Shown: positions 3,029-51,271 of the stretch, in pieces
Layout of the letters: each line of letters begins with the position of its first letter
Numbering within the stretch: the stretch's first letter is position 1
Assembly (NCBI GenBank): GCA_022393335.1
Contig: JAJEKB010021016.1
Location: forward strand, 832,938 to 896,937
Origin: Macrotrachela quadricornifera
Taxonomy: Eukaryota; Rotifera; Eurotatoria; Philodinida; Philodinidae
Length of the DNA: 64,000 nt
Direction of reading: 5' to 3'
The notes under the pieces: model-generated
Database searches by the model: none
The model's input: the letters and a program-made list of their open reading frames with translations, nothing else
What the model was told of the DNA's origin: nothing
Position numbers and translations under genes: made by a program

Positions 3029-3102
3029 ACTGATATTATTTATCTTATCTATAAACTTTCTTAATATTAATTTTTAGTATATCATTGTAATATTTTTCCT
3101 TA

Positions 3103-3108
3103 AATAAA
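3103..3108 (+). terminator. AATAAA poly(A) signal
   Basis: Canonical AATAAA 75 bp after the stop codon of the three-exon secreted-protein gene. The region is AT-rich, so chance occurrence is possible. Confidence 0.4.
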
Positions 3109-3903
3109 TCTACTAAAAATAATGACATATTTATACCATATCAAACTGGAAGACTCGATTCAATATTACTTGAATCAAATATTAAGTTTCTTTCATTTAT
3201 AATATTTCGTGATATTCGGCACATTTTCATTTATAACATGGTCGAAATCATTTAAAGAATAGCGAATATCATCAAAACATGTTGACCGTTATTTTAACGA
3301 ATAGCAATATTTAATATTAATTTTAATAAATCGGTATTCGTTAGACTAATGTGAAGAACATTATAGTACTATCTAGACAAGATACGTAGATCATATATTT
3401 CTCATATCAAGTTGAAAGAAAGTTTCTATTGAAGAATATTTTTCGAGAAGTAGAAACACGATCTATCTTATCTACTCTGATTGAAATAAAATGAAACAAG
3501 GATAAATATTTAATTGAAAGAATATCGAGATTAATATTTTTTTTTACTTTCAATAGTATGTAAAGCATTTATCGGAACTTGAAAAAGCTATTTTCAGTGT
3601 ACATCCATACATATTTACAATTTGATGTAATAAACAAACTAATATTTCAAGTTTTCTTATATGTTAAATTTTTTAGTAGTAGGAACTTTTAGAAATATTT
3701 GGTTCTAAATGAAATAGTAAAAAATATAAGTATCATTTTAGTTGTTATGTAAAATATGTGTTTTTTTGCATATTTTTATTTATCAATTAAAATATATGAT
3801 AAAAGAATAAAGTTACAGCCAATAGAAATGAAAATATTAATATTCAATACTACGACTGTAATCATTATTTTCTATCATCGTTTAGTTGCCTTCACTTGAG
3901 TCC
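3109..3903. other. Intergenic AT-rich DNA
   Basis: Between the convergent ends of two secreted-protein genes. No open frame with coding character, RNA gene or repeat family was recognised. Confidence 0.4.
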
Positions 3904-6103: not shown

Positions 6104-6598
6104 TTAAATAAAAAATAATGTCATTGGAACAGAATCATATCCAGTTTCTGGTAAATCTTTCATATAATTCGATTGACCAATTCCTAAGATAAAACCTGCT
6201 TTTTCATACATTCTAATTGCTTTTTTATTCGTACGTTCTGTTTGTAAATGAATATATTTATATCCACGTCTATGATACCATGCAATAATATTTTTTAATA
6301 AACTTGTACCAATACCACGACCTTGTGCGGATTTTCTTACTCCAAATAATGTTATTAAAAGTCCACCACTTGATCCAATATTAAACATTAATGCACATCC
6401 AACACATATATCATTTTCATGTGCACACCATATGTGATTTGCATTACGAATTGTTTCACGTAAATCACCATATGTAAAACTTTTTTGAAATAATGGATAT
6501 AGAACATCTTCTAATTCCCATAATGGATAATTAAGATGATGAGTAATTTTAATTGGTGCTAAAAAATATGAAATTTGTTGACTGGATGAACGAAACAT
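6104..6598 (-). CDS. GNAT-family N-acetyltransferase, 164 aa, intronless
   Basis: Members transfer the acetyl group of acetyl-CoA to an amine; the substrate cannot be read from sequence. The acetyl-CoA binding loop (motif A) is QGRGIG at residues 92-97, preceded by a beta-strand (LLITLFGV). The C-terminal helix motif NKKAIRMYEKAGF (residues 124-136) matches the N-x-x-A-x-x-x-Y-x-x-x-GF signature of the fold. The length is normal for a single GNAT domain and no frame break is seen. The start is the first ATG of the frame. Both neighbours are unrelated intergenic stretches, so no pathway context is available. The domain call is confident. Confidence 0.85.
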   Translation of the reverse strand: MFRSSSQQISYFLAPIKITHHLNYPLWELEDVLYPLFQKSFTYGDLRETIRNANHIWCAHENDICVGCALMFNIGSSGGLLITLFGVRKSAQGRGIGTSLLKNIIAWYHRRGYKYIHLQTERTNKKAIRMYEKAGFILGIGQSNYMKDLPETGYDSVPMTLFFI

Positions 6599-7118
6599 TA
6601 TTATTACTGTTAAATAGTATTCATAAAAAGAAATAACATATTCTTTATTGTGTTTCGATTTTCTTGTTTTTTTTTTATCCTTATACTGTATAGGTGATTT
6701 ACATCACACATACAGTTACGAATAATGAAGATTTTATATACATATGCTTTAGCAGTTAGAAAAACAAATTATTATGATTACTTTTTCACGTGGATAAAAA
6801 AAATAAATACTAAAAAAATATTTTTTTGTGATTTACTTATCTTGCTTTTATAATAATTACAAAAAGAACAAATATTTAAGAAATTTCGGTATATAAATTA
6901 TCCATAGTAAATAAAACTTTATTTTTATCAATATATATTGAAATATTTGCATAAAGTAGTTAATATTTAACATTTGGATTTGTTTCAATATAAAAAATTA
7001 TTGAAATAAAATCATTATTATTTTATAAAATATTTGTAAATAAAAGAGCTACTTATAATGATGTTATCGTAGATAAAAATCTATTTATTGATATGATATA
7101 ACCTTGAAGTTTTTTTCG
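6599..7118. other. Intergenic AT-rich DNA
   Basis: Presumed 5' flank of the acetyltransferase gene, running up to the Merlin-like element. Nothing specific was recognised. Confidence 0.4.
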
Positions 7119-11441: not shown

Positions 11442-11498
11442 TTCAAGTATTGTTTTTAGTTTGTCATTAACATTGTTCATCACACTCTTCTGAACACT

Positions 11499-13439
11499 AT
11501 GGGAAATAAAAAAACAAAACCAGCAATAGCACGTGGATCAAAACAACATACCACCATGATGCTATCATCAGCTCCGTATACTCACCGTATTCAAAATTTC
11601 CTATTGGTCTGGCTTGACAACAGTATTGATGAAGTTAAAAATGCTGATTCTATTAATACAATGTCCAAATTACGAGAAGTTGTGAACACCGTACATACAT
11701 TTACCACGGTAGATGAATGCGTTAACTTCATCAACAGCATTGAAGAAGAAAACATATTCATGATTTCGTCGGGTGCACTTGGAGAAATAATAGTACCTGT
11801 TGTTCACGAAATGTCACAGGTTGGTGCAGTGTATATTTTTTGTGAAAACAAAACTCGTCATAAGCTATGGACAAAAAATTGGGCAAAGGTCAAAGGTGTC
11901 TTCACAGATATTAAACCAATCTGTGAAGCACTGAAACAAGCTGCTCATGAATGTGATCAAAACACCATTTCAATGAGCTTTGTAGCCACGAATGATGATG
12001 TAACAAATAAAAATCTTAATGAACTCGATCAATCCTTTATGTATACGCAAGTACTGAAGGAAATTCTTCTAACAACTGATTTCGATCAACAGCATATTAA
12101 AGACTTTCTTGTCTACTGTCTGGAAGAATTTATCGATAATAATAACGAACTGAAAAATATTGATAAATTCGAACGTGAATATCACAAATATAGTCCAATC
12201 TGGTGGTATACTTACGAATGTTTTCTTTTTTCAATGTTAAATCGTGCTTTACGAATGATGGAAACTGACCTCATTTTGAATATGGGTTTCTTTGTTAAAG
12301 ATCTCCACGAACATATTAAACAACTTCACTCTGAACAATATCCTGGACACGCTCATTCACACAAATTCATCATATATCGTGGTCAAGGTCTTTCACAAAA
12401 AGAGTTTGATAAATTATTCCAAACAAAAGGTGGACTATTATCTTTTAATAATTTTTTATCCACCACTATGGATCAACAAGTATCTCTTAAATTTGCTCGT
12501 GAAACAGTAGAAACTTCTGATTTAGTAGGCGTTTTATTCGTCATGAACATTGATCCATCCATACCATCAACACCTTTTGCTAATGTTTGTAGTGTTAGTT
12601 GTCATCAAGGTGAAAAAGAAATTCTCTTTTCTATGCATTCCGTATTTCGAATTGTGGACATTAAACAAATGAAAAATAGTAATGATCGTCTCTGGGAAGT
12701 GAAATTAACACTAACCAGTGATAATGATCCTGATTTACATAGTTTAACTGAACAAATACGCAAAGAGACATTTCCACATCTGAAAGGATGGTATCGTATG
12801 AGTAATTTATTAATGAAAGTTGGACAAATTGATAAGGCTCAGCAAGTATACGAAATTATGCTTGGTCACAAACCTGATGAGCATGAAGAAGCACATATTT
12901 ATCATATTCTCGGAGTAATCAAGCATGGTCGAAGAGAATATACACAAGCAATTATATATTATGAAAAATCAATTGAAATCAATCAGAAGATTCTCCCTCC
13001 TACACACCCTGATTTAGCTGCTTCTTACAATAATATTGGTTCGGTGTATGAAAACATGGGTGATTATTCAAAAGCACTTTCATCTCATGAAAAAGCACTT
13101 GAAATACGACAAACAGTTCTTCCTGAAAACCATCCTGATTTGGCTGAATCTTACAGTAATATTGGTTTGGTATATCAAAACATGGATGATTATTTAAAAG
13201 CACTTTCATCTCATGAAAAAGCACTTCAAATACGACAAAAAATTCTTCCTCAAAATCATCCAAGTTTGGCCATTTCTTGCAGTAATATTGGTTCGGTGTA
13301 TGACATTATAGGTGATCATTCAAAAGCACTTTCATTTTATGAACTTGCTCTGAATATAGGAGAACATGCATTACCTGAAAATCATCCACATCTTCAAATA
13401 TATAAGAAGAGTATTGAAATTGAACGAAAGAAATTGTAA
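11499..13439 (+). CDS. Receiver-like / arginine ADP-ribosyltransferase / TPR protein, 646 aa
   Basis: A single-exon protein of three parts. Residues 30-150 form a response-regulator-like domain (FLLVWLDN at 34-41) whose phosphoacceptor strand reads FMISSGALG, with Ser in place of Asp, so phosphotransfer is unlikely. Residues about 200-405 are an ART domain of the R-S-E class: YRG at 293-295, STT at 321-323 and the EKE (ExE) motif at 372-374. Enzymes of this class move ADP-ribose from NAD+ to a protein arginine. Residues about 425-640 hold kinesin-light-chain-type TPRs with a 42-residue period (SYNNIGSVYENMGDYSKALS...ILPxxHP), for protein binding. All catalytic motif residues are present, so activity is plausible. 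No signal peptide is seen, so it is probably cytosolic. Such ART-TPR fusions are abundant in bdelloids. The target protein is unknown. Confidence 0.9.
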   Translation: MGNKKTKPAIARGSKQHTTMMLSSAPYTHRIQNFLLVWLDNSIDEVKNADSINTMSKLREVVNTVHTFTTVDECVNFINSIEEENIFMISSGALGEIIVPVVHEMSQVGAVYIFCENKTRHKLWTKNWAKVKGVFTDIKPICEALKQAAHECDQNTISMSFVATNDDVTNKNLNELDQSFMYTQVLKEILLTTDFDQQHIKDFLVYCLEEFIDNNNELKNIDKFEREYHKYSPIWWYTYECFLFSMLNRALRMMETDLILNMGFFVKDLHEHIKQLHSEQYPGHAHSHKFIIYRGQGLSQKEFDKLFQTKGGLLSFNNFLSTTMDQQVSLKFARETVETSDLVGVLFVMNIDPSIPSTPFANVCSVSCHQGEKEILFSMHSVFRIVDIKQMKNSNDRLWEVKLTLTSDNDPDLHSLTEQIRKETFPHLKGWYRMSNLLMKVGQIDKAQQVYEIMLGHKPDEHEEAHIYHILGVIKHGRREYTQAIIYYEKSIEINQKILPPTHPDLAASYNNIGSVYENMGDYSKALSSHEKALEIRQTVLPENHPDLAESYSNIGLVYQNMDDYLKALSSHEKALQIRQKILPQNHPSLAISCSNIGSVYDIIGDHSKALSFYELALNIGEHALPENHPHLQIYKKSIEIERKKL

Positions 13440-17530: not shown

Positions 17531-18934
17531 TTAAAGTAATTTACGTTTGAAACATGGTGGTGGTGGTTGAGTATTTCCTTGTGCAATACCTTCGACATTC
17601 GAACATGCATAATATTCATTACCCCATGGATGAAAACCAGGATTATTTACAATTACATTATCAAATAGTATATTTAACATAGGATTAGAAGAATTACCAA
17701 TAATAACTCCAGGACTTATTTGTGGATTATTAAGAGTAATATTTCGTAAAATAATGTTATTCCAAGTAATACCAGATGGAATTGGACATGAAGTTTCTGG
17801 TATAAATGGCCATAAAAGTGAACAAGCACCTTTAAAACCTGCTTGTTGTGGTCCAATCCATATAGCCCATTGAGAAGCATTATTTATTTGAATATTTTCA
17901 TAATAAATATCAGTAATTTCACCAGTATGACCTTCTTCACCTGGACGTGATTTTAAATAAATTCCTTTAAATGTATTAAACATCGTCGAATTTCTAAATG
18001 TAATATTTCGAACACATGAATGTGCTGCAGATGGACCAACAGAACCAATTGTTAAACCAACACCTGAAGCATTAATACGTTCAAATAACATATTTTCACT
18101 ACATGATGAATGTATACTATTTGAATCTTGTTGTTTTACTGCAATACAATCATCATCATTCCATATATTACAATCATGAATCCATACATTTATACCAGAT
18201 ATATCAAATCCATCTGTATTAAAAGCAGTTAATTCATTTAAATCATGCCAATTTCTATTTGGATTTCTACGTGCATCTACATCTGTATAACGAATTTCTA
18301 AATTTGCAATATCTTTTCCATAAAATGTCCATTTAGGAGAATTTTTTAATAAAATATTTTCAATTAAAATATTAGTAGAATTATAAATTACTAGTAAACG
18401 AGGTCGATCTCCACGAATAACTAAATATTCAACTAAACCCCACCAACGATTACCTGAACCATCAATAATTCCTTTATTATTTGACAAATGTGAACTAGTA
18501 AAAATAACATGATCTAATTGTTCAAAATAAAAACAATCATAAACTTGATGAGTCTTTGGATCACGAGGCCATACTAATTCATTATCAGAAAATTTAAGAA
18601 TACCATCAATTTGAATAGTTACATTTGATAATCCACGAGCATAGAGACCACCCATTAACCAATATGTTCGATTAGATGGTATAAGAAGAATATTACCACT
18701 TTTCAATGACGAAAGAGTTCGATTGAGAAGAAGTGTATTTTTCCAACAAGTAGATAATGAACTATCACCAGCTATGCCTCCAATCGTTTCAAAATTAATT
18801 ATTTCAACATTTGAAAACACTGAATGATCACTAACGGCATTAATATTGATATGAGAATGAACACTTTTGCCAAAAATAACAGTGAAAATGATTAGAGAAC
18901 TAAACGTGAAAATAAAAGACGTCGAAAACATCAA
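17531..18934 (-). CDS. GH28 polygalacturonase-family glycoside hydrolase, 467 aa, intronless, secreted
   Basis: GH28 enzymes hydrolyse alpha-1,4 links in pectin (polygalacturonan or rhamnogalacturonan) through a right-handed beta-helix. Residues 1-28 look like a signal peptide, so the enzyme is secreted. Conserved blocks are NTDGFD (239-244), NDDDCIAVK (259-267), GVGLTIGSVG (291-300) and YLKSRPG (326-332). The Asp residues expected to act as acid and base are present. The usual GHG histidine is Val292 and the Arg of the RIK motif is Tyr326 (YLK), so this belongs to a divergent subgroup or has altered activity. Cysteines are frequent, as in secreted enzymes. Lack of introns next to intron-bearing neighbours, and a fungal/plant/bacterial family, suggest horizontal transfer. 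Plant-cell-wall enzymes of this type are known in bdelloids. Confidence 0.85.
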   Translation of the reverse strand: MMFSTSFIFTFSSLIIFTVIFGKSVHSHININAVSDHSVFSNVEIINFETIGGIAGDSSLSTCWKNTLLLNRTLSSLKSGNILLIPSNRTYWLMGGLYARGLSNVTIQIDGILKFSDNELVWPRDPKTHQVYDCFYFEQLDHVIFTSSHLSNNKGIIDGSGNRWWGLVEYLVIRGDRPRLLVIYNSTNILIENILLKNSPKWTFYGKDIANLEIRYTDVDARRNPNRNWHDLNELTAFNTDGFDISGINVWIHDCNIWNDDDCIAVKQQDSNSIHSSCSENMLFERINASGVGLTIGSVGPSAAHSCVRNITFRNSTMFNTFKGIYLKSRPGEEGHTGEITDIYYENIQINNASQWAIWIGPQQAGFKGACSLLWPFIPETSCPIPSGITWNNIILRNITLNNPQISPGVIIGNSSNPMLNILFDNVIVNNPGFHPWGNEYYACSNVEGIAQGNTQPPPPCFKRKLL

Positions 18935-21312
18935 TTGCGCTTGATATTGTTAGTAAACAAATTCTGAGAAAAAAAAACGTGTCCAACGTTCTAGCTTTGT
19001 AACTATAAAGAAAAAGATAAGAACACATACATTTATTATCTTTTTTTTCTCAACTATCATTATCTATGATAAAAAAGGGAAGAATAGAATATTCAATTTG
19101 ATTTTTATTTTGTTTGAATGTATACTTCTTTGTTTCTGTCTTTTGAATTTATTTCTTATCTAATTTCTTATTGTTATTCGCTTACTTTTCTCAATAAAAT
19201 AAAAATGTCTAATGTTTATCATATTTATGAATTGATTTTTTTGAGATATTTTTTTCTTAACTATCTATATTCAATAGATATTTTTAAAATTCATATATAT
19301 TTTCTTTAATTTATATTTGCTATTTGTTCTTCCATAATTTATTCGATAATTTTCAGGAATCTTTTTTATATTAAAAACTTTTCAAAGCATATAGTGTTAA
19401 TTTGCATATCAAAAAATGAACTTATAAAAATCGAAAGCAAAGAAAAATCAGATAGTATGAGAAGTCATTCGTTGATATCGATTTGAATGTGCGCCGAAAA
19501 TTGTAATTTGAAAGATCATTGTCTTCGACTTTTATATATGACAGATAAGATTTCATGATTATTAAATCAATCATGTCTTTTTATAACACATAAATAGGTT
19601 CTCTCGTTTCTATTCAGAAAAAAGAGTTTAAATCAATACATATTACTTATGGATAATTTATTATATATGTATGTTCTTCTGATATTCTACTGAAAAAGTC
19701 TCATACAATTAAATTAAGCCAGATGAGTTATCATCAAATCATATAAATAAAATTCGTATTCTTATAATTCTTAGACATTCCTATCATAATATAATAAGTT
19801 TATTAGGCAATTAAAAAATTCGAGCCAACTCCTTTATGGTATCACTTGGTTAACACTAAATCAGCCTCTCTATCTTAACACACTCAACATACAATAGTTT
19901 AAATTAAATAGATTTTCAACTATGTCATTCATCATTATAAAACCTGAAAATTCGTTCCATCAGGCTTCAAAACTATGCAATGTCCATGTAAGTGAAAACA
20001 ATCCTATTACTATCAATAATTAGTTGTTCAATATCAGAGAGCATACATTTAGGATAAAATGTAAAAATCAATCGATTATCAAAACATATGGATTCAATAT
20101 CATTCTCTTTATGTGATCCTAAAAACATATCGATTGTAAATATTCTTATTTGTGAAATGCACAGAACTTGGTGATAGTGCAATGTCTTTCAATAAAATTA
20201 TTTCACCCTCAATGAGTTCAAACTTTTGTTTCTTCCAAATACTTCAGATTAATGTAAATGGTATCTTTGTCATAAGCGTAACATCTAACCATGAACTTTT
20301 TGAGAGAACATAAAACAACTACTAAAGAGTATTTGATAAAAGATTTATCTCAAAATGTTGTATTATTGATGAGTTATGCTGCTCAGAAGGGTAGCATACG
20401 ATTTCTATAAAAGTGAGTTCATTCTTGTGATGACTGGTATTCTATCAAAACTGAACTAACATGCTTTATAGTTTGAGCGTTTAAAGTCTCATTGATTAGA
20501 TATTCAATGATGAGTTCATTCGCTAAAAACTTTCTAGTATAAGTAATTGACAATGATATCAATTACGACTCACTGAGAATAGTATTCCTGTAGATGATTA
20601 GCCCATAAACCCTTACATAATCTAAGATCCAGTGCACGGAATACTTTCGACACATATGGCAGTTTGAAAATGATGTTATTAAACTATATTATGAATTGTA
20701 TTCCTGTTTAACATAACACTTTCAATACGAAAAATTTATCTTAATCTTCAACTCAATAGTAAAAATGTCACCAACAATTGGAGTTACGTGAAATTCTGTC
20801 ACAATATTCAGCAGTGAAATGTAGTTTGTTTTCGTTTCATCGACTTGTGACAATAGAAAAAAGACACAAGTTTTTTTTTTTTTTCAAAATTCGTTCTGTT
20901 TCTTTGTCAATAGTACTGGAACATTGACTAAAAAAAGAAACTAACAAAATGCCTCGTGCTTTTGATGTACTCGTTTATTTCTATATGCGCCATTAATTTT
21001 TACTCGTTCTCTTTTTTTTTCTTCTATCGAACTGGAGAATATATACATACATATGCAATGAGTTTTATTTGACAGAATCAACTGAAAAACATTTACTTTT
21101 TTTATTCATTATTGTATTTTTTTTACTGTACTAAGAAAGTAGGTCGTCAAAAAGAAAAATTCATCTTTAGTGATTGGTTGTTTCAAAAAACGCCAAAACA
21201 AACGAAACTTTCTTTTATGTTATTCATGAACTCTCGCAACCGTGTCCATAACCAGGAATGCGTATTAAAACGATAAAATTTTGTATTCTCTTTTTCAGAT
21301 CATTTTCTATGA
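18935..21312. other. Long intergenic region, 2.4 kb
   Basis: AT-rich. Around 19970-20660 the minus strand has broken protein-like stretches (for example KFELIEGEIILL) that may be a decayed gene, but no family could be named. The rest, including a T-rich tract at about 20870-20885, shows nothing specific. Confidence 0.3.
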
Positions 21313-22201
21313 ATGGATCGAAAAAACGATAAATATATAGCTCAACAAGAAGCACAATCCGGATTCATACCACTGAATAATATGAGNNNNNNNNNNNNNN
21401 NNNNNNNNNNNNNNNNNNNNNNNNNNNNNNNNNNNNNNNNNNNNNNNNNNNNNNNNNNNNNNNNNNNNNNNNNNNNNNNNNNNNNNNNNNNNNNNNNNNN
21501 NNNNNNNNNNNNNNNNNNNNNNNNNNNNNNNNNNNNNNNNNNNNNNNNNNNNNNNNNNNNNNNNNNNNNNNNNNNNNNNNNNNNNNNNNNNNNNNNNNNN
21601 NNNNNNNNNNNNNNNNNNNNNNNNNNNNNNNNNNNNNNNNNNNNNNNNNNNNNNNNNNNNNNNNNNNNNNNNNNNNNNNNNNNNNNNNNNNNNNNNNNNN
21701 NNNNNNNNNNNNNNNNNNNNNNNNNNNNNNNNNNNNNNNNNNNNNNNNNNNNNNNNNNNNNNNNNNNNNNNNNNNNNNNNNNNNNNATCAATAAAAGATA
21801 TTCTGGCTTCTGCAAAGAAGCTCTTACAAGTGGAGATTTATTTACCATGAATGGTAAGTATTTCAATATAAAGAGAACAATTCAATCCTGAATGAACTTT
21901 CATACAATTATCATAAGTTAAATTCTTGAAAAAAAATTATTATATGAACGAAAGTGATGACTTTTAGTATCTCAATTTTTTATTTATATTGAATATTAAG
22001 ATTTTGAAGTAGAAAGAATGTTGATGATTTTGAATTTGATTGTTATAGTTCCAATGAATCTTGATGTCAAGATGAAAATGCTCGTTATTGGTGCTCTATT
22101 TTTGATTGTAAGTTCTATTTAATCGGTATTCTTAATTTCTATATTTTCATCTATAGGATTTGATGAATTATGCTATGAATCCTCAACAACAAAACTCGTG
22201 A
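21313..22201 (+). CDS. Unknown protein, three visible exons, interrupted by an assembly gap
   Basis: The frame opens with MDRKNDKYIAQQEAQSGF at 21313 and enters the 400-N gap. It reappears in the same frame (INKRYSGFCKEALTSGDLF), ends at 21853 in phase 1, and splices to 22049-22107 (VPMNLDVKMKMLVIGALFLI) and 22157-22201 (DLMNYAMNPQQQNS, stop). The splice sites are GT-AG, introns are 195 and 49 bp, and phases agree. The second visible exon contains a short hydrophobic stretch (MLVIGALFLI). The gap size is probably arbitrary, so frame agreement across it is not strong evidence. The function is not recognised. Confidence 0.45.
21387..21786. other. Assembly gap (400 N)
   Basis: A run of exactly 400 N inside the unknown gene; the true length is unknown. 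Confidence 1.
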
Positions 22202-26906: not shown

Positions 26907-29900
26907 ATGAACATCAAAATTTTCTTTCATTGGCTTTACAAGGAAATATATACTTACAATGTTTTTGTACCTGACGAAAATGATTATGATGATAATGAAA
27001 ACGAACGAGAAGTATCAGCAACTGTTTTGAGACGGCAAAGATATGCAACTCGATTGTATATTTTACTTCTCATGGGTAAGTAAAAAGGAAATGAGCTTTT
27101 CTTACTGTGTTGTACAAAATGCTTGCGACTTGTTAGAAGCCGAATGGTAGAGTTTATGAGAAATTTGATTTTGCGGCAAATTCAAATATCAAACAATTTT
27201 GTAGCAAAAATTCGCTACCATAGATACAATAGTTATGATCATGACAATATAATGTACATAGCGATCAGATTAGCATAATCATTTTACCTTCTAAGCGACA
27301 TGATGCCCTATATCATTTAAAAGTTTCTCCCAGTAGCTTCTATGTACAAGATATTTGTGATATTGCGGTGTTTGCTGTATAATGGTATTTCTGGTATTAA
27401 CTTTTTCAAGCATATTAATCCTTATTTTTTTTCTTTTTCAGTGTTTTTGTATATTCTTTTCTATATCACTTTAATAAAACCACAATCTCGAACGTACATT
27501 GTTTCTTCGATTAATCTTGATGTTTTCAATCAACTATATCTTGAACATAGTGAAACTCTTTCATGTCCATGTTCAAAAGTTACAACACCTTATCGAAATT
27601 TTGTCTCCTACAACGTCACTTTTCATCCGGTTTGCAATAGTACGTTTGTTAGTGAATCATGGATTGAAGCACTATACTTTCCCAATGCGAGTATGTATGG
27701 AGTAGCAGACTTTCGAACAACAGCTCATGCTCAGGTAAACATATATATTTTTATTGTTAGAAGAATGGGATTGAGGATTTTGATCTATTGAGTATAACCT
27801 TTGACAAATGAGTCTTTGTACCTTCACTCTTGTTCATTATTTTCCTCTCATTATGTCCGGTTAGCTGAGAGCCAATATCCAAGTCAATAGCGTAGTATCA
27901 TTTTTAACACACGAATAGCCCTTTTCCTCTGTTAGTTAAATATTTCTACTGAATCATGCATTCATGATGATTCAACCTCACCATTTCTCTTTCCAAACTT
28001 TATTACTCCAAAGTCAAAACTTGCAAACTTAGCAAGATCCATCGATAATATAGGTCATACGATAAATTATAGTAATTACCAGGAAATTCGTTTTGGATAA
28101 ATTGGAAAATAATTTTCACTCAATTGAGAGCGAGGGCAAAACACATGCACAGGACATCGATTAGACTCATAATGATCAGAATGCACATACTAAGTATAAT
28201 AGATATAATCGGAATAACGGACATTAGGTCCATTATATTACTTAAAAGTCTTCTCTTACAGATGTGATGAAAAATAAATTCCTGAGAAATTGCTATAATG
28301 CATCAAATCTAATGGAATTTACATTAGTAATATTTCAATAACTACAAAAGATTTATAATTTATTATTAGAATTTCTTTTCTTCTCGTTTAGTTTCGACTT
28401 TTGGCCAACTTATGCTCATTTTCTCAAGATGCAATGTTTCAAAATCAGCTTGATCTTGAGAATAATGAGTTTGTCACTCTTTATCTTCTTCATCAATCAC
28501 GAGTTCAATCAGAAGTTTATGCTACTACAGATTTATTTCAGAACACTCTCTCTACTCGAATTACTTCATTTGTCAACTATCTTCGAATCACCACACGAGC
28601 AGATTATTTGGTTTCAGCTCTCAATACAAATTTTTTGGTCGCAGCTGATGCTATAGGCAGCGAGCCTTATATGGTAGGAGGAATGGTAACGTATGGTTCA
28701 TGGTCCATAACAGGAGAAGAAACAAGCTCATATAAGTCATGCAGCACTGAAAATCCAACAAGTTCAGTAGGTTTCCTTTCAATCTCGAATGAGACACAAT
28801 TTGTTGCTCATTTACGGTGGGAAGAGCCTAAATACAATTCTTCACTTGTAAATGGATTTTTTGCTGCATGTACTCCTTTCGAAGCTCTTTTGGCGAGTAC
28901 ACTTGATTGTTTATATGATATTAGCTGTCTTCAGTTATTATCTTATCACTTTCCAGGGCTAAATCAAGTAAGAATAATACTATTCTATATCTCTTTTCAT
29001 TTAGAATTGTTTTGTTTAGATAAACATCAATTTGAGTAGTGCTGTTCTTTGCGATTCAGAGAGATCAAATGTGTCCGTAAACAATCTTTTGCTAAATTTA
29101 TTTGTTCACAATCGAACACCAAATATCAATTATATGAAATACTTTGAGCAATGCTCTCCTTCATTCTGCACTTACACAACAACAAATGAAACCGATTTTT
29201 CTTACACAATCACTCTTTTCATTAGTCTTTATGGTGGTCTCATTATTATACTTCGTCTTATTGCACCTTTTTTAATTGACATTCTATTGCAATTGAAACA
29301 TCATGCGCCACGTAGAGATGTTAATTCAGGTATCTGCACTCAAATACAATTAAAAAATTGTTGTTAAAGATAAATTTTCTATTTGTCTTCTAGAATCTAT
29401 ACCTACGAGACGTTTTTCTCGATTTGTCGAATGGATGAAACGCTTAAACTTATTCAAGGAAATTGATAATCGATCAGAACAGAGTATCAAACAACAGAGG
29501 ATTATTACCCGTGTCTATGTGGTATTAATAATAGGTATAGTTGTTCGATCGATATTTTCTTCTCGTAATAAGCAAAAGCTAGAATTCGTATTTTTATAAT
29601 ATCGTTACCATAACAAGATATTTTCTGAAAAATAACCATATAATCTGACAGCTCGCGGAATTCTCTCCCATCCTATGTATTAGTTATGCTCTCCCATACA
29701 ATTATGAAACACAAATTAATTCAAATGATATGTATGTATGTATGTAGACATTCTGCTAATGACGATCTTTTCCAGCTCTCCTGTTCCATAAGCTCTTCCT
29801 TTCTTTTATTCCATAACTTTCAATTTATGCAAATAGTCAGGGTTTATCAAAGTATATAATAATGTCTGGAAGAAGTCATTCTTGTACTGCTCACTATCTC

Positions 29901-32900
29901 AAAAATAGAACAAAGATGATGATAGAAATGAGCAAATATACAAGGTGATAGAGAATAATATCAATTTTTCAGAATATGTGGCTATTTTTCGAAAAATGCC
30001 CTTGTAGAATAACAATACACATTTCCAGCTTTTGTTTTCTCTCGATAGTCAAAAACATATTCAGCCTTATATGCAGATATAATATCGAAACAACGTTTCA
30101 AGTAATCTAAAATTTATTTTTTGATTACTAGGTTCAATAATGACTCTACTCCTCTTCACTTCACTCGACCCTCAAATAACAATCATTAATATTTCAAATC
30201 CTTCACTAGAAACTTATGAAGATTTACAGATCTCACATTCGGATACACTTCGATGTCCTTGTACAAGCGCAAATATATTACATCGAGCATTTATCTCATT
30301 ATCTCCAGTTTTTCATCAAGTGTGTTCCAGTGATTTTGTCACAGATCAATGGCTTGAAATATTAAGAAATAGTTATGCATTCGAAATGACTTTTGACTGG
30401 CGTAGTAAATCTTTTTCACAGTTTCAATTGTTATCTAATCTTTGTCAATTCGCACATGAAACAGTTACCACTGCTATTGATCGCTTTCTTATGGAATTTT
30501 TCGTTACTTCGAATGCATTAACCAAAATCGATTTTGACCAACAAATAAATGCAACTCTCGATGAATTTTTCCAATCTACAATTATTTATTTTGATCTTTT
30601 TGTCGAAACAACACGTCTTTTTATGCAGGTCGATCAGCCATTTATGGGATCAATATACCCTTACTATTATCAAGACGATTTGGACTTACTTTTATCCCCG
30701 ACATACCAGTTAGTGGATGATAGGTTGATGATAAGCGTATGTTATATGTGAAAAATGATAAATATTGTTCCTTTCGTTCATGTATGTTTGTAAGGATTCG
30801 TTCACTTTAGTGTATTGATGTTTCTCCAACTGATAAGATTCGCTTAATTCTGAGTCTGTTAGTATAAACACTAACAATGAATTAATATAGAATCAAAAAT
30901 TGTATAGATGTAGATTATGGAACGCAATGCTTCGAAGAATGCATCTTAGCTTGAGTATAGATAAGAGATAATCACAACATCACATCCACCTTAGATTATA
31001 TTATTGTTAGTAATACATTTATTCAACCAAAATTTTAGCCTTTTTTTTATCGTTGTTCATTGACTAGCGTATTTGATATATGAACTACTTAGAAGAGTGA
31101 GTTTAATCCTAAAAACAAGCAGTAATCATGTTTCATCGATGTAGCGTTGAGAGCAAAAGCTTGAAAAAAAAAGACTTTCGATAAGTTATCTCTTTCACTA
31201 CTATGACGTCAGATTAAATGATGGTTTCTAAGATGCGATCAATGGTATTTTATTCTTTTCTCTTCAGTTCTTGTTTCTAATGTATGGAACTCGTGATATC
31301 AATACAACGCACATCAAATGTATTTGTGCAACTAATCCTCATTGCCAAAGTCCGATGATTATTTACGAAATCGACTATCGTTTTCGTATAGGATATGACT
31401 TTCATGTCGCTTATGTAGTGCCAAGTTTCAATGAAGGATGTTCAGTTCTTGAATCTCTTCGACTCTCAACTTTCGAATGTTTTTATACTACTTCGGACTG
31501 TTTCTCAGTTCTATTGCGTTACATTCAAGAGGCATTTATCTATAATGTTGAATATCCATCGTGGTTAGATGTTCGTCCTCTTGTTTATAATTCAACATCG
31601 AGTCAATTTCCTCCAAACATTTCCGTATCAACAATAATTAATAAAATCATGATCGAACGATGGGATTCATCTATTTCATATGAGCAATTTTATCAATCAT
31701 GTGCACCTAGTCATTGTTCTTATTCTGACAAAACTCAGACGAAAACAGCGTTTGGAATTATTGCTACTTTAGTATCTATGATTGGCGGTGTTAGTGTTTC
31801 ATTGCGTTTGATAACACCTCATATTGTGATGCTTTTGATTTCTTTATTTACAAAGAAGAATGCAAGGCAACAGCGACGAGGTAATATTTTATCCTTCTTT
31901 TAGTGTGAACGAAAATAGATATTACAAATTTTAAAAATAAATCAAAAATGCTTAAATATTCGATAGTTTCAAAGTAGTAGTCATAAAAAAAAGAGTTCTC
32001 GAGATTAAAGATTGTTTTGAAACTTGTGATTTTTGTTATATGATAAAGAGAAACAATGAGAAATGAATTATTATATGTATATAGTTCGAAGAAAATTGTC
32101 CGATCATCTGAAATTGATCATAAAAAATCTGATTGAGCTATTGTATACCACTGCAATCAATCTCAACATTTTTTCGGCACGACATTTTGGAAATAATGTT
32201 AACCGAGCATTAACTAAACGTCTTGGTCAATGGACCACTCGTCTTTACATTCTTCTATTTATCATTACTCTTGTGGTTCTTGTTCTATACTCTATTATTC
32301 AACCACAACCATTAACAAAAAACTTCAATAAACCATCTTTTGATTTTTACAATCATCTCAGACAACAATATGGAGATGTATTAAAATGTTCATGTTCATC
32401 AGTTGCATCGATGTTTAATCAATTTGTCAATATTGAACCCGAATTTCATCAGGTAAGCACATATCATTGTAATGCTTTTATTATATAATGTTCATCACTT
32501 GACAAATTCAAAAACGGAGTTAATTTGATGAAATGTAGGTATGTTCAAGTCAATTTATCTTGAATGAATGGAGAAATAATCTTACTGGTAAGCTTTTCGG
32601 TGGTTCTGGTAACAATAGAGAAATAGATTATCGTGGATTCCTTTCTGCTCATTTACAATTCCTTCAAGGTTTGTGTCAACTCTCCATTCAATCAGTCAAT
32701 AGCTTGATTGAACAATTTCTTTCGTCACTATTTATCACTGCTCAATTATTATCTCCAGACGATTTTCAAATTCGTCTCTCATCATTAATCAATCAAACTA
32801 AATCAAATGCTCCTATTACATTCAATCGTCTTCTCTCTTTGACTCGCATTGTCAATCATGGGAATGCTATTATATCAACTTATGGAACTAATTTCGAGTA

Positions 32901-35900
32901 TATTGAGGACATTTTCGGAGAGATTTACACTTATGCAGTAACACGATCTTTAATCTATGACGATGCTTGTTCTTGTGGTTTATTACCAAATTGTACTACT
33001 CAAGCGAATTTCATAAACTTGGAAACTCTCGAAAAAACACCAATCAAAGGTATAAAAATTGGATGCACACCAAGTGAATCATTTCGATCGTCAACTCTTG
33101 AATGTTTCTATGATCAGTTATGTCTTGATCTTATTCAAAACTATACCAATTACTCAACAAATATTATTCCTCTTAATCAAACGATAAACCGATTCTTAAT
33201 AAATGCAACTGTAAATGAACTGATCAATGATGTATTTGTTGAAAATTGGACAACATCAATGAATTATTCATCTTATTTTCATAAATGTTCACCTTTATTA
33301 TGTTCATATACTTATGTTGAACAATTCAATCTTCTCTATACAATTACTCTTTTACTTGGACTTCAAGGCGGTGTTAGCATTGTTCTCCAATGGATTTGTC
33401 CTCAGATAGTTCGACTCCTATTTAAAATATATCGATATCGCAAAAGGCGAACCACTCCTGTTCAACTTATATCTACTGTGGAAATGACACCTGCTGAAAA
33501 CGTTAATGCCAATGTTGATAATCGAATTTCTCATATAGAACCGAATATATCAGCAGATGAAGTGTTATGGTATGTTTCTTTTCTATTCATTTGACTGATA
33601 ATTTTCAAGATACATTCATTAGCGTCGATGTTGCATCACCAATACAATATTCTTTAAAATGTATCTTTATCTATACGATATTGATATTTGTAATAATCAT
33701 TGTGATTATATTTTCGATTTTTATTGCTCGACATGAAAGAAAACAAGAGATTTCAACAGGTATGAACTTTTCGGAATAAATATTTGTTTCCGACTGTTTA
33801 TCTCAATAAACAGTACAGAGAATAGAACAAGATATTATCGTTTGATAGATAACAATGGATTCATCTGACAATCCATGTGTATTTGGCAGTTAAAATAGTT
33901 TAGTTTCAAGTATTGAGAATTTTAATGATGAATAAATGACTTGCCCATCTATCTGCTCAGTCATGTGTCTTATTATAAATATGTATTTCTATCAAAGTAT
34001 TGAAATTTTGAAAAATAGTTCACTTTAACATTTTCATTAACAGAACTCTCACTCTCATCCTCTTAATAATAACATATAGAATAATAAACTAATTTTGTTA
34101 GTTTCTTCAACTATAATTACAACGACAATCGATACCATCATTTATTCAATGACTACGGCAACAGCGAACATTACAAATACTTCCTGTGAGTATATCAAAG
34201 AATTCTAGTTTCTTGCTCGAAGACGAGAGTTTGTTATTTTCTGAGACTGATGGTATGAGATATTCATTGTTTATATAGAACGATATAAGAAGGATGTTTT
34301 ATAAGTTTAGATCCCAATTTTATTTTTTCTGTACTCCGAGAGAAAAAGAATTCAACTTTATAATTTCAAAAAGCAACATTCAAAGGATAGTCTTTGTGTT
34401 AGTTCACAAAGTCCAGTAAGATTTAACTTTTCAAAAGCATAATTGAAAATTCATATCTGACCAACATTACTGGACTTCAAAATAGGTCTGCTGTCGCACG
34501 AACTCGTTTTTTCAACTAAAGGGATACCAAACCCTTTCACATTATTGATTTGGAAAGTTATTGTTTACTGAACTTTGTAGAGAATTTGACGGACTATCTT
34601 TTTAAAATAGATATTCATATTAAAGCAATAATAATTAAGAAAAGTATTGATAAAACATTGTCACAGTAACTATTTGTACAGAAAGTACGTATAAAAATCA
34701 AATTATATGAGTTTTTCTAGTTTTTTGATGAACGTATTATTTTCCTATAACTCAGTCAAATTAAATGTTATTCATATACAATAATAGTTTGAATGTTGCT
34801 TTTTGAAATCGTAAAGATAGAATCTTTTTGTCTCGGTGTATAAGATTGTTTTTTGATTTCTTTGTTTTTTCACTAGTACTACTTTGTCAGCCAACATTGC
34901 AGTCAATATCAGTAAACCCTAATAATTACACCAGTGAATACTTATATCCTCTTGCGGGGGATTTTAATAATGATAATCGACTTGATGTCGTTTTTTATTC
35001 AATCGAATATGATGGTATAATCGTGGCATTAGGGCTTGGGGACGGAAATTTTCAAGAAGAGAGAAGGTTGTCTCCATTAAATTATTTTGACATAGTTAAT
35101 ATGGGTTTTGGTGATTTCAACGACGATAATTATCTGGATCTAATCGTCATAAGTCTAAACGTGAGGTCTACAGCTCTTCTACTTGGAATTGGTGACGGCA
35201 CTTTCCAAGCACCAACAATATTGTATTCTATTTCTCTTATATATCCTATCACTGTTGCTGTATCAGATCTAAACAATGACAATCGATTAGATTTTATTAT
35301 TGCCAGTCTGTACGAAAACAACGTTTTTGTGTTACTAGGAAACGGTGATGGTACGTTCATACAACCAGCGGGTTTATATACTGGTTTTCGTAGTTATTTA
35401 TATTCAATTGCTGTCGATGACTTCAATAACGATAATCATTTGGATTTTGCTGTCGTAAATCAGAATACTAGAAATATTGGCGTATTTCTTGGACATAATA
35501 ATGGCAGTTTTGAAGCACAAATAGTATCATCTGCTGGTGGTGCTCTTGATCCATCCTATATAGCAGTTGGCGATTTTAATAGCGACAATCATTTGGACAT
35601 TGCTATCTCTTATAAAACGAAGTGTAGTGTCGGTATTATGTTTGGATATGGAAATGGAAGTTTTGGAGAAATTCTAAAGTTCTACACACCATCTGACGTA
35701 ACAGACTTTCCAATAGTTGCTATGGACTTCAACGGCGACAGTCACTTGGATATCCTATTTCACAGAAAAGATCCTTCGGGTGTAGATATTCTACTTGGAG
35801 ATGGAAAAGGTCGTTTTCAAAGACAAAATTTATTTTCAGTCGAAATTATAGATAATAGAGCACGATTAATTATAGGTGATTTCAACAGTGATGGATATCA

Positions 35901-35979
35901 AGATATAATTAGTGTAGTAGCAGATCCTCCTTCTTTCAATGTTCTGTTGAACACATGTGGATGTTGTACGTTGCAATAA
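26907..35979 (+). CDS. Giant membrane protein, about 1809 aa: three tandem TM-ectodomain-TM modules, a seventh TM and a seven-blade FG-GAP propeller; 12 exons
   Basis: Exons: 26907-27075, 27442-27734, 28392-28967, 29020-29329, 29394-29534, 30132-30736, 31268-31880, 32085-32452, 32539-33569, 33623-33759, 34102-34185, 34877-35979. All junctions are GT-AG with matching phases (5430 nt). Each module has a basic linker, a TM (ending RLYILL... or RVYVVL...), a Cys-rich ectodomain and a GGxxxxLRLIxP-type TM. Shared ectodomain motifs are CPC/CSC, VCSSxF, ESxxxSTLECFY and CxPxxCxY. TMs are near residues 48-70, 408-432, 488-508, 858-890, 956-975, 1290-1318 and 1382-1403. A Thr/Ser stalk follows, then seven DFNxDxxLD calcium-binding FG-GAP blades (about 1450-1800), integrin-alpha-like. 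With a cytosolic N-terminus the propeller is extracellular; a basic ARHERK stretch after the last TM argues somewhat against this. A receptor or adhesion role is inferred. The modules are a bdelloid family I recognise but cannot name. Splitting into several genes is the alternative. Confidence 0.75.
34900..35960 (+). other. FG-GAP/VCBS beta-propeller domain (within the giant gene)
   Basis: Seven repeats carry the Ca-binding loop: GDFNNDNRLD, GDFNDDNYLD, SDLNNDNRLD, DDFNNDNHLD, GDFNSDNHLD, MDFNGDSHLD and GDFNSDGYQD. Most are followed by an LLGxGDGTF-like turn. Seven copies make one closed propeller. The open frame extends upstream to a TTG at 34828, but no ATG precedes it; the upstream part is best read as intron. 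Confidence 0.9.
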
Positions 35980-36290
35980 TTATGCTTATCAATATTAATA
36001 ATGCTTTTAATTTGCCAGAAAAAATAATATTGCACAATCGACTAGTGTATGCCTATAGTAGAAAGAAAACATTTAAAGATCTTGTTTCATCAGAATTTAG
36101 CTTTTTGTACTCCATCAAATTTCTAAAATAATATCAGTACATAATGAACTTTTGTCTGTCTTATGAAATATTTTTGCATACTTTTGCTTGCTTTTGTCTT
36201 CTTCATATTCTTTATTGTTTTCAATCACTTATTTTGAATTTCGTATAGCCATTATATTATTTCAAAAGATACTGAATAAAACACTGATTA
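35980..36290. other. 3' flank of the giant gene
   Basis: AT-rich; nothing specific was recognised. Confidence 0.35.
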
Positions 36291-36560
36291 AGTTGAATTC
36301 AAGTATTCAACTTTTGAAGCTTGGTACGCCTTTCCACAGGGTTTGGTCCTCACCATCAGCTGTTCATCTGTGGTGTTGGTACGCCCTCCTCCAGCATTTC
36401 GCCCTTACCCTCAGCTGGCCCTGTGTGGTGTTGGTACGCCCTGCTCCAGGATTTCACCCTCACCCACAGATACCTCTGTGAGGTTCTATACCCCCAATGT
36501 CTTCCCTCTCTCTCTTCGAATACTTGAATAGTTGAATTCAATTTTCAAGTATTACATATA
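36290..36560. repeat. GC-rich minisatellite island (about 53-bp unit) flanked by inverted TTCAAGTATT-like words
   Basis: Two and a half copies of a unit starting TGTGGTGTTGGTACGCCC (36371, 36424, diverged first copy near 36320) form a locally GC-rich patch in AT-rich DNA. AATTCAAGTATTCAACTTTT on the left and GAATACTTGAATAGTTGAAT on the right are inverted. The open frames here on both strands follow from low stop-codon density and are not genes. Confidence 0.7.
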
Positions 36561-37568
36561 TGAGGTTAACATGATCTCCTCTTGCGTGCAACTTTCGATA
36601 AAGTTTAGGATATTTTTGGAAAGAAGTATGCCAACTGTAGCCAAAGTGACTAATGTCAGCACTTTATTAATGGTCCGTAAAAGCCAAAATTGTTATATAT
36701 GATGAAAAAAGTACCGATGCTTGGTATTTTTCGAATTTAAAATTGGTAGTCTCGCTTTTGGAAATCATAAAATGTGATAAGTTTGTTCAGATTGAGGTGA
36801 CTATAGTATCGCACTTATTGATAAATTACCTGCCAATGATTCTCAAAATAAATAGAATGAATTCAGTCGAGGGTTAAGCGAGTCACCATTGACGAGCGTT
36901 ATTTGTTATATAGGATGTATCAAAAATTCTCAAATAATTTTAAAATGAACTGTTATCATGCTTCTTGATCATGTTCGAAATGTGCAACATTTTTTATTTC
37001 GTCTAGATCTTGTCCTAAGTTGATGGCAAAATTTGGAATTCTTTTCAATGATGCGTTGTGAAAAATTCTATTAACAATGGAAACCTTCATGATAGTACTA
37101 CATTTCACAATATTGTGCGAAATGAAAAAAGGATTCGAAGATTATTTTTATTATCAAATATGTTTTTATATAAGAGAATCACCAGGTTATTCTTTAAGAA
37201 CCACTATGATCAGAAGAATAGTAAATGGAGGAAATAATAAATTTACCAAATCACATGAGATACAAAGATAAAAAATCTCATTGTCAATCATAGAATTTAA
37301 TGTAATATGATGATCCATCTAAAATTGTTATTTTTCAATTTTTTATTAAAATAAACTGTTGCATCATCTTATGCTCATTTTTACTGCTGATGAATATTTT
37401 TGTATGATTTCATCAGTCTTTTTTCTTTGTTGTAAAGATAAGAATATATGGTTATATTTGCATCATCAACTAATATTCTTGCATAATATTCTCTTTAAAT
37501 ATTTATATTTTATAAGAGGCAACATACTTTTTTTCTAGTCACATAATAAAATATATTTTATTATTAAG
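36561..37568. other. Intergenic DNA upstream of the RNA ligase
   Basis: No coding or repeat feature was supported. Short frames such as 37077-37271 are AT-rich and not protein-like. Confidence 0.35.
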
Positions 37569-38624
37569 ATGATTTCGTTTCCCTCCATCAAACAATTTCG
37601 AACGGTGATTGCTGATATAACTGAGCGTACTGATCAGTGCAACAACGATAATGATAAAGAACTCTCTGTACTCAATTTCATTGGTACTGTTAAAATCCAT
37701 GGTACTAATGCAGGAATTGGTTATCATCGAGAGTTGGGGCATTGGTATCAATCACGTAATTTGATAATTACGCCAATCAAGGATAATCTTGGCTTTGCTC
37801 AATATATCGATCCTTTAGCTGATCAATTTTTTTCTGAATATGTTCTTCCACATTGTCCAATAATTCGAGAAAACTATGAACAAGGCAATAATATTCTCAT
37901 TTTTGGTGAATGGTGCGGCGGAAATATTCAAGCAAATGTGGCCATTGTTGGTCTTCCTAAAATGTTCGTGATTTTCAAAGTAAGAGTCGTTGGTCGAAAG
38001 ACGAGGAGAACAGGTGCAAATCAAACTGAGGGTGACAGCAATAAAAATAATAAAACGAATCCATTTTGGGTTTCACCAGAAGAGTGGTCAACTATCAAGT
38101 GGCACGATCGACTCATCTATAATATTTATGATTTTCCTACTTTTTCAATAAAAATTGACTTCAAACATCCGGAATTTTCACAAAAGCAACTTGCTGATAT
38201 TACTGAACAAGTCGAAAAGCAATGTCCTGTAGGTGAATATTTTAAACGAATTGGCATCGGTGAAGGTGTTGTATGGACTGAATGGATGCAAACTCATGGT
38301 GAGCTTACATTCAAAGTGAAAGGTCGAGAACATTCTTCAACAAAAGTAAGAAAATTAGCCGATATAAATACCGAAAAATTAACCAGTAGAGAAGAATTTG
38401 TTGAATATGCATGTACTGAAAATCGCATGCGTCAAGCACACGAATATTTGCGAGAACAACAATTGACAATTGAAATGACAAATTTTCGAATATTTATCAA
38501 ATGGCTTCTGAACGATATTATCAAAGAGGAAAAGGATACTATAAAACAATCGAATATGAATATCAATTATATAGGACGTGCGGTATCGAACAAAGCTCGA
38601 ACATGGTTCCATCAACAATTGTAA
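37569..38624 (+). CDS. Rnl2-type RNA ligase, 351 aa, intronless
   Basis: ATP-dependent RNA ligases seal 3'-OH/5'-phosphate breaks through a lysyl-AMP intermediate. Nucleotidyltransferase motifs are all visible: motif I KIHGTN (42-47, Lys42 as adenylated residue), motif III-like IFGEWCGG (111-118), motif IV GEGVVW (231-236) and motif V LTFKVKG (246-252). A C-terminal all-helical part follows (about 255-351). The motif I form KxHGTN resembles T4 Rnl2 and the trypanosome editing ligases rather than DNA ligases. The size fits Rnl2-like proteins. The single exon and the phage/bacterial affinity suggest horizontal acquisition; RNA ligases of foreign origin have been reported in bdelloids (from memory). 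A role in RNA repair after desiccation or oxidative damage is inference. No targeting signal is seen, and the first ATG is used. Confidence 0.85.
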   Translation: MISFPSIKQFRTVIADITERTDQCNNDNDKELSVLNFIGTVKIHGTNAGIGYHRELGHWYQSRNLIITPIKDNLGFAQYIDPLADQFFSEYVLPHCPIIRENYEQGNNILIFGEWCGGNIQANVAIVGLPKMFVIFKVRVVGRKTRRTGANQTEGDSNKNNKTNPFWVSPEEWSTIKWHDRLIYNIYDFPTFSIKIDFKHPEFSQKQLADITEQVEKQCPVGEYFKRIGIGEGVVWTEWMQTHGELTFKVKGREHSSTKVRKLADINTEKLTSREEFVEYACTENRMRQAHEYLREQQLTIEMTNFRIFIKWLLNDIIKEEKDTIKQSNMNINYIGRAVSNKARTWFHQQL

Positions 38625-49815: not shown

Positions 49816-51271
49816 ATGTCATCTACATCATCATCGTTAATCAACACATTGACATTAATAACACAACGAGCTGGACCATACATCTACTATACAGAAATGA
49901 CTCTCGGTGTAACCAGCTGTTTACTGAACATTTGTGTTTTCCCTCAACAACAATATCGCACGATATCCGTCTGCATCTGTAAGTATTTTTTTATTTTGAT
50001 AAAGAATTGAAGAATGTTTGACACACAGAGAAAACTAAAAGTATTTAGTTAATACTTAGGAATTTTACAAGCGTGCACAGGTTTCAGGACGAAATTTCTT
50101 CGAATTTTTATATTCATTCGAGTGTTGATGTTTTTGTATTATGGATGAATACTAGAGATGCCTATATGTAGATATTGTATCTATGCACATGTATATTCTT
50201 TCACTTTTGAGCTTACTCAAAATGAAACTATTTGATAAAATATGATTATAAAAGAAACGAAGAAGCATTTATTTGAATGAATGAATGTAAATCTTCAACG
50301 TTGCTTATTCATTTGTTGTAGTATATTAATCTAGACAGACAGGTGCATAAAAGTAATAAAAGAATTCTAATTATTTCATTTTCTTTTTGGTAGATTTTCT
50401 TACAGCATCAATAGCAATGTTGGCTACATTAACTTTTGGGCTTTCAGCCACTATCTATACATTATACCGTACAGATCTTATGTTGGTATCGGTTTTTTTC
50501 TGCAAATTTCGAAATTATTATCAACAAGTTGCTTATATGATAATGCGCTGGTCTTTAGTGGCTGCTTGCTTCGATCGAGTTATACTTTCATCTCACAACA
50601 TACGTTGGCATCGTTTTGCTCGAGTACAAGTTGCATATCGTGTTGTTGCAATAATGACAGTTGTCTGGTTAATATTACCTGCTCCTTCTCTCTTCTATTA
50701 TAACATAAGAGGACCTTCCTGCGGTTCTGCGTATAATCTAGCTACACAGTATTATCATGCTGTTTATATTCTTCTTACTGGATTTATTTTACCAGTTAGC
50801 ATGATGATTATTTCTGCTTTGATTATTTTTCGTAACCTTGTTTATAAAAGAAAACGTCGTCAAGTTATAGTTGCACAACAACAAGAGCTTAGAAATCTAG
50901 CAGAAGATGCACAACGAAGACGTGATCGTCAAGTTTTATTGATCCTTCTTGGTCAATCGATAGCTTATTTTATTGCATCAGCACCATGGTTTACTTATCT
51001 TTTTTATTTGTCGGCTACAATAAATGTTACTAACAAATCAGCTGAGCGAATAGCGCTCGAACGATTTGCCTATTTTCTTGCTGAACCGATTCAATATCTC
51101 TTCCCAATATTGTCATTCTATTTATATGTAATGACGTCTAGTGTGTATCGAAGCGATTTATTGATTATGATACGTTCTCTGCTGCGATGCGAACGGCAGA
51201 ACAATATTCATAGAGTTCAACCAGCTACTGGCAATTCTGCCAATCAAAATAGGAATGAACGTCAAACATAA
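49816..51271 (+). CDS. Rhodopsin-like (class A) G-protein-coupled receptor, 346 aa, two exons
   Basis: Exons 49816-49978 and 50394-51271 join in phase 1 (1041 nt) across a 415-bp intron placed at the TM1-TM2 loop. Seven hydrophobic segments are visible. The end of TM3 has CFDRVIL (DRV at 115-117, a DRY variant). Cys91 at the TM3 start (FFCKF) and Cys164 in the second extracellular loop (GPSCGSA) can form the canonical disulfide. The third intracellular loop is long and basic (YKRKRRQVIVAQQQEL...RRRDRQ). TM7 lacks a standard NPxxY and reads EPIQYLFPILSFYLYVMTS. The protein is a plasma-membrane receptor in the style of the expanded peptide-receptor-like GPCRs of bdelloids; the ligand is unknown. 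The start ATG gives a short extracellular N-terminus (MSSTSSSLINTLTLITQR) with no signal peptide. Confidence 0.85.

Follow-up and report, generated by a model that had tools for sequence, protein, structure and literature searches.

The stretch of DNA analyzed here (hereafter, the window) comprises 64,000 nucleotides of the bdelloid rotifer Macrotrachela quadricornifera (assembly GCA_022393335.1, contig JAJEKB010021016.1, positions 832,938-896,937 of the forward strand), and its positions 26907..35979 are predicted to hold one gene of 12 exons for a large surface protein. According to our analysis, this protein would consist of three homologous membrane modules, a seventh transmembrane segment (TM), a Ser/Thr-rich stalk and an FG-GAP propeller, and it is probably a recognition receptor. 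The parts of the locus are listed below; every exon rests on the gene model, with further grounds in parentheses, and the membrane sides are predicted.

Exon 1, 26907..27075, + strand: start codon, acidic cytosolic N-terminus with the N-V-F motif, beginning of TM1 of module 1 (junction alignment, motif)
Exon 2, 27442..27734, + strand: remainder of TM1, beginning of ectodomain 1 with the C-P-C and H-P-V-C motifs (junction alignment, shared columns)
Exon 3, 28392..28967, + strand: middle part of ectodomain 1 (junction alignment)
Exon 4, 29020..29329, + strand: end of ectodomain 1, TM2 of module 1 with the G-G motif; next intron in phase 1 (junction alignment)
Exon 5, 29394..29534, + strand: cytosolic linker 1-2 with the L-N-L-F motif, beginning of TM1 of module 2; preceding intron 64 nt (junction alignment, motif)
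Exon 6, 30132..30736, + strand: remainder of TM1, first half of ectodomain 2 (junction alignment)
Exon 7, 31268..31880, + strand: second half of ectodomain 2, TM2 of module 2; next intron in phase 1 (junction alignment)
Exon 8, 32085..32452, + strand: cytosolic linker 2-3 with the L-N-I-F motif, TM1, beginning of ectodomain 3 (junction alignment, motif)
Exon 9, 32539..33569, + strand: remainder of ectodomain 3, TM2 of module 3, cytosolic R/K-rich tail (junction alignment)
Exon 10, 33623..33759, + strand: seventh TM (residues 1383-1401), no in-frame ATG (hydropathy; junction mainly from one relative, P0001)
Intron 10, 33760..34101, + strand: AATAAA at 33775, 33805, 33931 and 34083; candidate alternative 3' end
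Exon 11, 34102..34185, + strand: stalk rich in Ser/Thr (junction alignment)
Exon 12, 34877..35979, + strand: FG-GAP propeller of seven blades with a calcium-type D-x-N-x-D loop in each; stop codon (Pfam, PDB profile search, loop motif)
AATAAA, 36275..36280, + strand: about 300 nt past the stop codon; may serve as poly(A) signal for the full-length form

The 12 exons join into a frame of 5430 nt, 1809 codons followed by a stop. All 11 introns have GT-AG borders, and the coding frame has no internal stop, against 107 and 138 in the other two frames; the continuous open frame proposed in a first-pass annotation of this DNA was thereby borne out. The GC content at codon positions 1, 2 and 3 is 0.42, 0.355 and 0.244, and whichever of the 11 introns is read through, a stop follows after 2 to 23 added codons. 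Among the combinations of splice sites tried, only an alternative end of exon 6 at 30712 is likewise open (5406 nt); the end at 30736 fits the relatives better. When aligned with 14 relatives, most exon junctions sit within continuous blocks, and the linkers at 29329, 31880 and, most of all, 33569 are variable. The junction at 33569, between module 3 and the seventh TM, is supported mainly by P0001 of Adineta ricciae (ADEVF/EVDA against its ADEVL/CVDV, the slash marking the junction). The introns between modules 1 and 2 and before exon 10 measure 64 and 53 nt and therefore leave little room for gene ends at those places. For A. ricciae, BRAKER gene prediction drew on RNA-seq from the species itself (PMC7943196), which lends each junction support, not proof. 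The gene model of the window copy is supported by homology; its splicing and expression are predicted.

The three modules are homologous and stand in a fixed order. Their profiles align with one another at E 2e-59 to 3e-68 (hhalign), their pairwise identity in the window protein is 26-29%, and hydropathy places two TMs (TM1 and TM2) in each, which agrees with the three tandem TM-ectodomain-TM units originally proposed. In 35 alignment columns, including ten cysteines, the majority residue (at least 70%) is identical across all three module types. With a module hidden Markov model (HMM) built from proteins that it later scored, and with fragments of one module merged by HMM coordinates, three modules (complete or not) were counted in 108 of 121 proteins, two in 13 and more than three in none; this count is biased to proteins resembling the three-module query, with room left for four or more. 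Eleven of the 13 two-module proteins start within a module. Three complete modules are present in 38 of the 121 proteins, and these 38 were used for the tree and for the charge and N-[LIVM]-F counts. The N-[LIVM]-F motif lies ahead of modules 1, 2 and 3 in 35, 35 and 33 of them, compared with 30 of 757 ectodomain background windows. The module unit, including this motif, appears to extend into the cytosol; since the motif precedes each module, the triplicated unit would be a whole two-TM protein and not an ectodomain alone. In the tree of 114 modules, each module number forms a clade (support 1.0, 0.999 and 0.81 for modules 1, 2 and 3), and the triplication therefore predates the divergence of these genes. 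The intron within TM1 has equal phase and equal alignment position in modules 1 and 2 and is absent from TM1 of module 3. A separate protein, P0300 (675 aa, on a 426-kb contig), has one whole and one partial module with 27% identity to module 1 and points to a putative wider module superfamily.

Hydropathy accounts for seven TMs, six in the modules and one at residues 1383-1401, as had been anticipated. Lysine plus arginine make up 17.5, 19.4 and 16.2% of the predicted cytosolic linkers (the third linker scored in 27/38 proteins), compared with 5.6-7.2% of the ectodomains and of the part after the seventh TM; the N-terminus has 8.5% of these residues and 19% acidic ones. By the positive-inside pattern, this supports a predicted topology with the N-terminus inside and the propeller outside, so that the outward propeller of the first-pass annotation also gained support, albeit indirect. 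The ectodomains carry 1.75-2.82 N-glycosylation sequons per 100 residues and the part after the seventh TM 1.96; since the linker before that TM (2.02) and linker 1-2 (1.37) are sequon-rich too, sequons discriminate the membrane sides less well than charge.

The window protein matches PF13517 with 113.4 bits (curated cut-off 26.9) and PF01839 with 58.6 bits (cut-off 22.1), and has seven loops of D-x-N-x-D type spaced by 51 residues, in keeping with the expected order of TM, Thr-rich stalk and seven FG-GAP blades. The PDB matches of a profile of 22 relatives were confined to the propeller: secreted esterases (E 1e-10), the fungal Psathyrella velutina lectin (1e-5), cartilage acidic protein 1 (1e-5) and integrin alpha-V (2e-3). 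The protein resembles an integrin alpha head in its seven FG-GAP blades, in their calcium-type loops and in the membrane anchoring of the chain. An integrin alpha chain has thigh and calf domains and a single C-terminal TM; the window protein, unlike it, has seven TMs, a C-terminal propeller after the last of them and no known beta partner. Thigh and calf domains were not found in it (Pfam, E<=1), and outside the propeller lie seven TM candidates. The term "integrin-like" fits the propeller and not the remainder of the protein.

Propellers of this kind also occur elsewhere in the genome. Twenty FG-GAP loci, some of them near-copies, were picked from the top-scoring list (open frames of 319-383 residues), and up to 9 kb upstream of them was searched for modules: L039 had strong module-3 exons, L033 a 15-bit match and 18 had none, the single strong case in 20 not being a genome frequency. 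By eye, nine of the 20 (L022, L024, L026, L028 and L034-L038) show an upstream short open reading frame with one TM and then a Thr-rich stretch, and L027 is a doubtful tenth; L024/L034 and L035/L037 resemble copies of each other. These nine share the order of exons 10-12 and, unlike the window gene, lack the three-module base in the region searched. We infer that the window gene is a three-module base that acquired a pre-existing TM-stalk-propeller cassette; as the base has its C-terminal end on the cytosolic side, fusion would leave the cassette's orientation unchanged. Relative P0094 has an NHL propeller as its outer part, and P0033 and P0057 have FG-GAP plus NHL, and the outer part is therefore exchangeable on a retained base. 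The same genome also holds many FG-GAP-matching open frames of about 1390-1600 aa and one of 9667 aa, which are a second, much longer class of FG-GAP proteins.

Relatives were counted among the best 120 of 203 matches to query residues 1-1440 (lengths about 995-3166) and the best 120 of 224 matches to module 3. In the first set, all organism-named relatives are from Adineta, and 69 of 120 carry FG-GAP, by the annotation table and equally by the blade motif; these fusions come from A. ricciae, A. steineri and A. vaga. The second set yielded five Rotaria proteins with 50-59% identity. The nearest relative, P0001, is a single 1641-aa model with 67% identity in module 1, 62% in module 3 and 52% in the propeller. 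The window protein belongs to a large bdelloid family listed in databases as uncharacterised proteins. The earlier remark that no named family has this architecture stands insofar as only the two FG-GAP families matched and no Pfam family did outside the propeller (E<=1), and it is refined by the large family already deposited. Over 26 proteins, base and propeller similarities correlate (Mantel r 0.887, p 0.001), with the same nearest neighbor for both parts in 20 of them; mean identity is 29% in the propeller versus 43% in the base.

Intron 10, between the seventh TM and the stalk, contains four AATAAA, whereas 500 dinucleotide shuffles average 0.6 and none reaches four (intron 10 being one of 11 tested). 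If exon 10 is read through, six codons follow before a stop at 33777, and this stop is overlapped by the first AATAAA. A propeller-less isoform formed through a 3' end in intron 10 is a fair prediction; the dull alternative is that split annotation accounts for the relatives' models that have a seventh TM but lack blades.

Based on these results, the best overall explanation, which we consider rather probable, is a diversified cell-surface recognition receptor. A single gene would encode a plasma-membrane protein crossing the membrane seven times. Its module would be made of the cytosolic N-[LIVM]-F motif, TM1, a disulfide-rich ectodomain of about 300-330 residues and TM2 with a G-G motif; triplication of this complete subunit would have given the base, and behind it would be fused a TM-Thr/Ser stalk-seven-bladed FG-GAP cassette of a kind also found base-free in this genome. 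The outward propeller, probably calcium-loaded and diverging more than the base, may bind a ligand, and the base may relay the contact to the cytosolic linkers; the target may be self/non-self, a microbe, or food or chemical contact. Disulfides, calcium binding, ligand binding and signaling are all inferred for the window protein. We place the receptor first because of the outward calcium-type propeller, its greater divergence relative to the base, the large family and the exchangeable outer domains.

An unlikely alternative is a single-chain pseudo-trimeric ligand-gated channel, in which the modules are two-TM subunits, as in DEG/ENaC or PAC, around one pore, with the propeller tethered to it as a sensor or regulator. 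In its most explicit form, which we hold slightly more doubtful, the base would be a covalent pseudo-trimer of a two-TM channel whose modules diverged long ago, the outward propeller would sense a ligand and gate the pore, and alternative 3' ends in intron 10 would decide whether the sensor is included. The covalent pseudo-tetramers Nav and Cav offer a parallel. Like PAC/ASOR (TMEM206), to which the module has a weak structural match, each unit has two TMs and a large ectodomain, which beta strands connect to TM1 and to TM2; unlike PAC, it has three units in one chain instead of separate subunits, and two long helices in the ectodomain, which we take to be larger than that of PAC. The PAC proton-activated chloride channel is a trimer (PMC8809534). 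PF15122 (PAC/TMEM206) was not matched by the window protein (Pfam, E<=1), the module profiles had no PDB sequence match at E<=10, and a genome search with PF15122 was uninformative, with no match in the genome or in its own controls. DEG/ENaC channels are trimeric and have two TMs and a cysteine-rich ectodomain; the modules resemble them in these TMs, the cysteines and the G-G motif in TM2. The ASC family (PF00858) was not found in the window protein (Pfam, E<=1), nor, for the module alignments, among the 25 families listed out of 56 (A2) and out of 38 (A3). Assignment to DEG/ENaC gained no profile-profile support: local hhalign against the rotifer's own ASC genes gave 0.0-0.3% probability, and reversed controls 0.0-0.6%. 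Foldseek and VIA gave no convincing match of the module to the trimeric palm-type fold, an absence that does not exclude it. The genome itself has 109 exon-level DEG/ENaC matches (L009-L020 among them), and three of the best five have no stop inside the match. A seven-TM G protein-coupled receptor (GPCR) was set aside as well, with no 7tm match in the window protein (Pfam, E<=1); the Pfam scan does detect a GPCR elsewhere in the window.

More improbable still are two adjoining genes, one for a six-TM three-module protein (exons 1-9) and one for a single-pass TM-stalk-propeller protein (exons 10-12). The base-free cassettes and the 18 FG-GAP loci without upstream modules would suit such an arrangement, and with intron 9 retained, a frame running through exon 10 would start at an in-frame ATG at 33567; intron 7 also contains an AATAAA, though this is no commoner than chance, and pairwise duplication could equally yield the co-divergence of base and propeller. 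However, exons 9 and 10 are just 53 nt apart, no in-frame ATG lies within exon 10 and read-through of intron 9 meets a stop at 33592, so that a promoter and a 3' end would have scant space; moreover, the 69 relatives noted above are annotated as fusions. We conclude that the window locus is one gene, with paired duplication of two genes as a minor rival.

Several observations weigh against a single fused receptor gene. FG-GAP annotation is absent from 51 of the 120 relatives; within 130 residues of module 3, 17 models end without blades after a seventh TM, and 27 stop before it, also without blades; these 27 would equally suit two genes. In such models the propeller may be optional, or the annotations may be split. 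The junction of module 3 with the seventh TM falls in a variable linker, and P0001 lies outside the best four for the TM7-stalk piece and for module 2, part of which it lacks. The module 3 clade has a support of only 0.81, no recognised cytosolic signaling domain was found in the window protein (Pfam, E<=1), and relaxed constraint may be the cause of the higher propeller divergence.

Finally, an adhesion or coat protein without signaling, that is, a glycosylated multi-pass anchor with a calcium-dependent lectin-like propeller, would agree with the sequon density of the outer parts (about 2 per 100 residues) and with the propeller's matches to esterases, the Psathyrella lectin, cartilage acidic protein 1 and integrin alpha-V, but it is very unlikely, as the triplicated, strongly ordered two-TM base seems in excess of anchoring and similar propellers in the same genome have simpler anchors.

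Elsewhere in the window, the following features were recorded.

3904-4351: 33-bp tandem repeat, nine copies, both strands open; the minus strand encodes repeats of the S-T-G-A-P-G-S-E-E-E-L type
6104-6703, - strand: GNAT acetyltransferase gene (Pfam scan)
11460-13439, + strand: weak ADP-ribosyltransferase-like region (under the Pfam cut-off), then TPR repeats, in one open frame (Pfam)
17531-18949, - strand: glycosyl hydrolase family 28 (polygalacturonase-type), one open frame (Pfam E 1e-33)
21387-21786: run of 400 N
36348-36484: tandem repeat with a 55-bp unit in about two copies, immediately past the giant gene
37539-38624, + strand: gene with an RNA ligase domain (PF09414), about 1.6 kb past the end of the giant gene (Pfam)
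50360-51271, + strand: rhodopsin-type GPCR frame (PF00001; Pfam)
58248-59309, - strand: ADP-ribosyltransferase-like frame (PF01129, 28.2 bits; Pfam)

The frame at 57777-58214, next to the last of these, had no Pfam match. The glycosyl hydrolase frame is presumably unusual in animals and a candidate for horizontal transfer.

A study of Penelope elements in A. vaga (2013) lists FG-GAP, NHL and seven-transmembrane proteins among the expanded families, for which it suggests roles in defence, chemosensing and communication between cells; the base-propeller fusion is not described in its account of these families (PMC3846280). Our searches of the bdelloid and rotifer FG-GAP literature yielded this paper alone, and no description of the present surface-protein family was found in them. 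What is new is how the parts are arranged, with an extracellular propeller of known type on a membrane base that Pfam does not cover.

In conclusion, public databases contain a large, uncharacterised family of animal surface proteins whose base lacks Pfam coverage and for whose base no solved structure was found. If it is a family of channels, it would offer a natural covalent trimer, in which the subunit order, asymmetry and gating of trimeric channels could be tested within one chain. If it is a family of receptors, bdelloids would possess a diversified recognition system built on a three-module base with exchangeable propellers.
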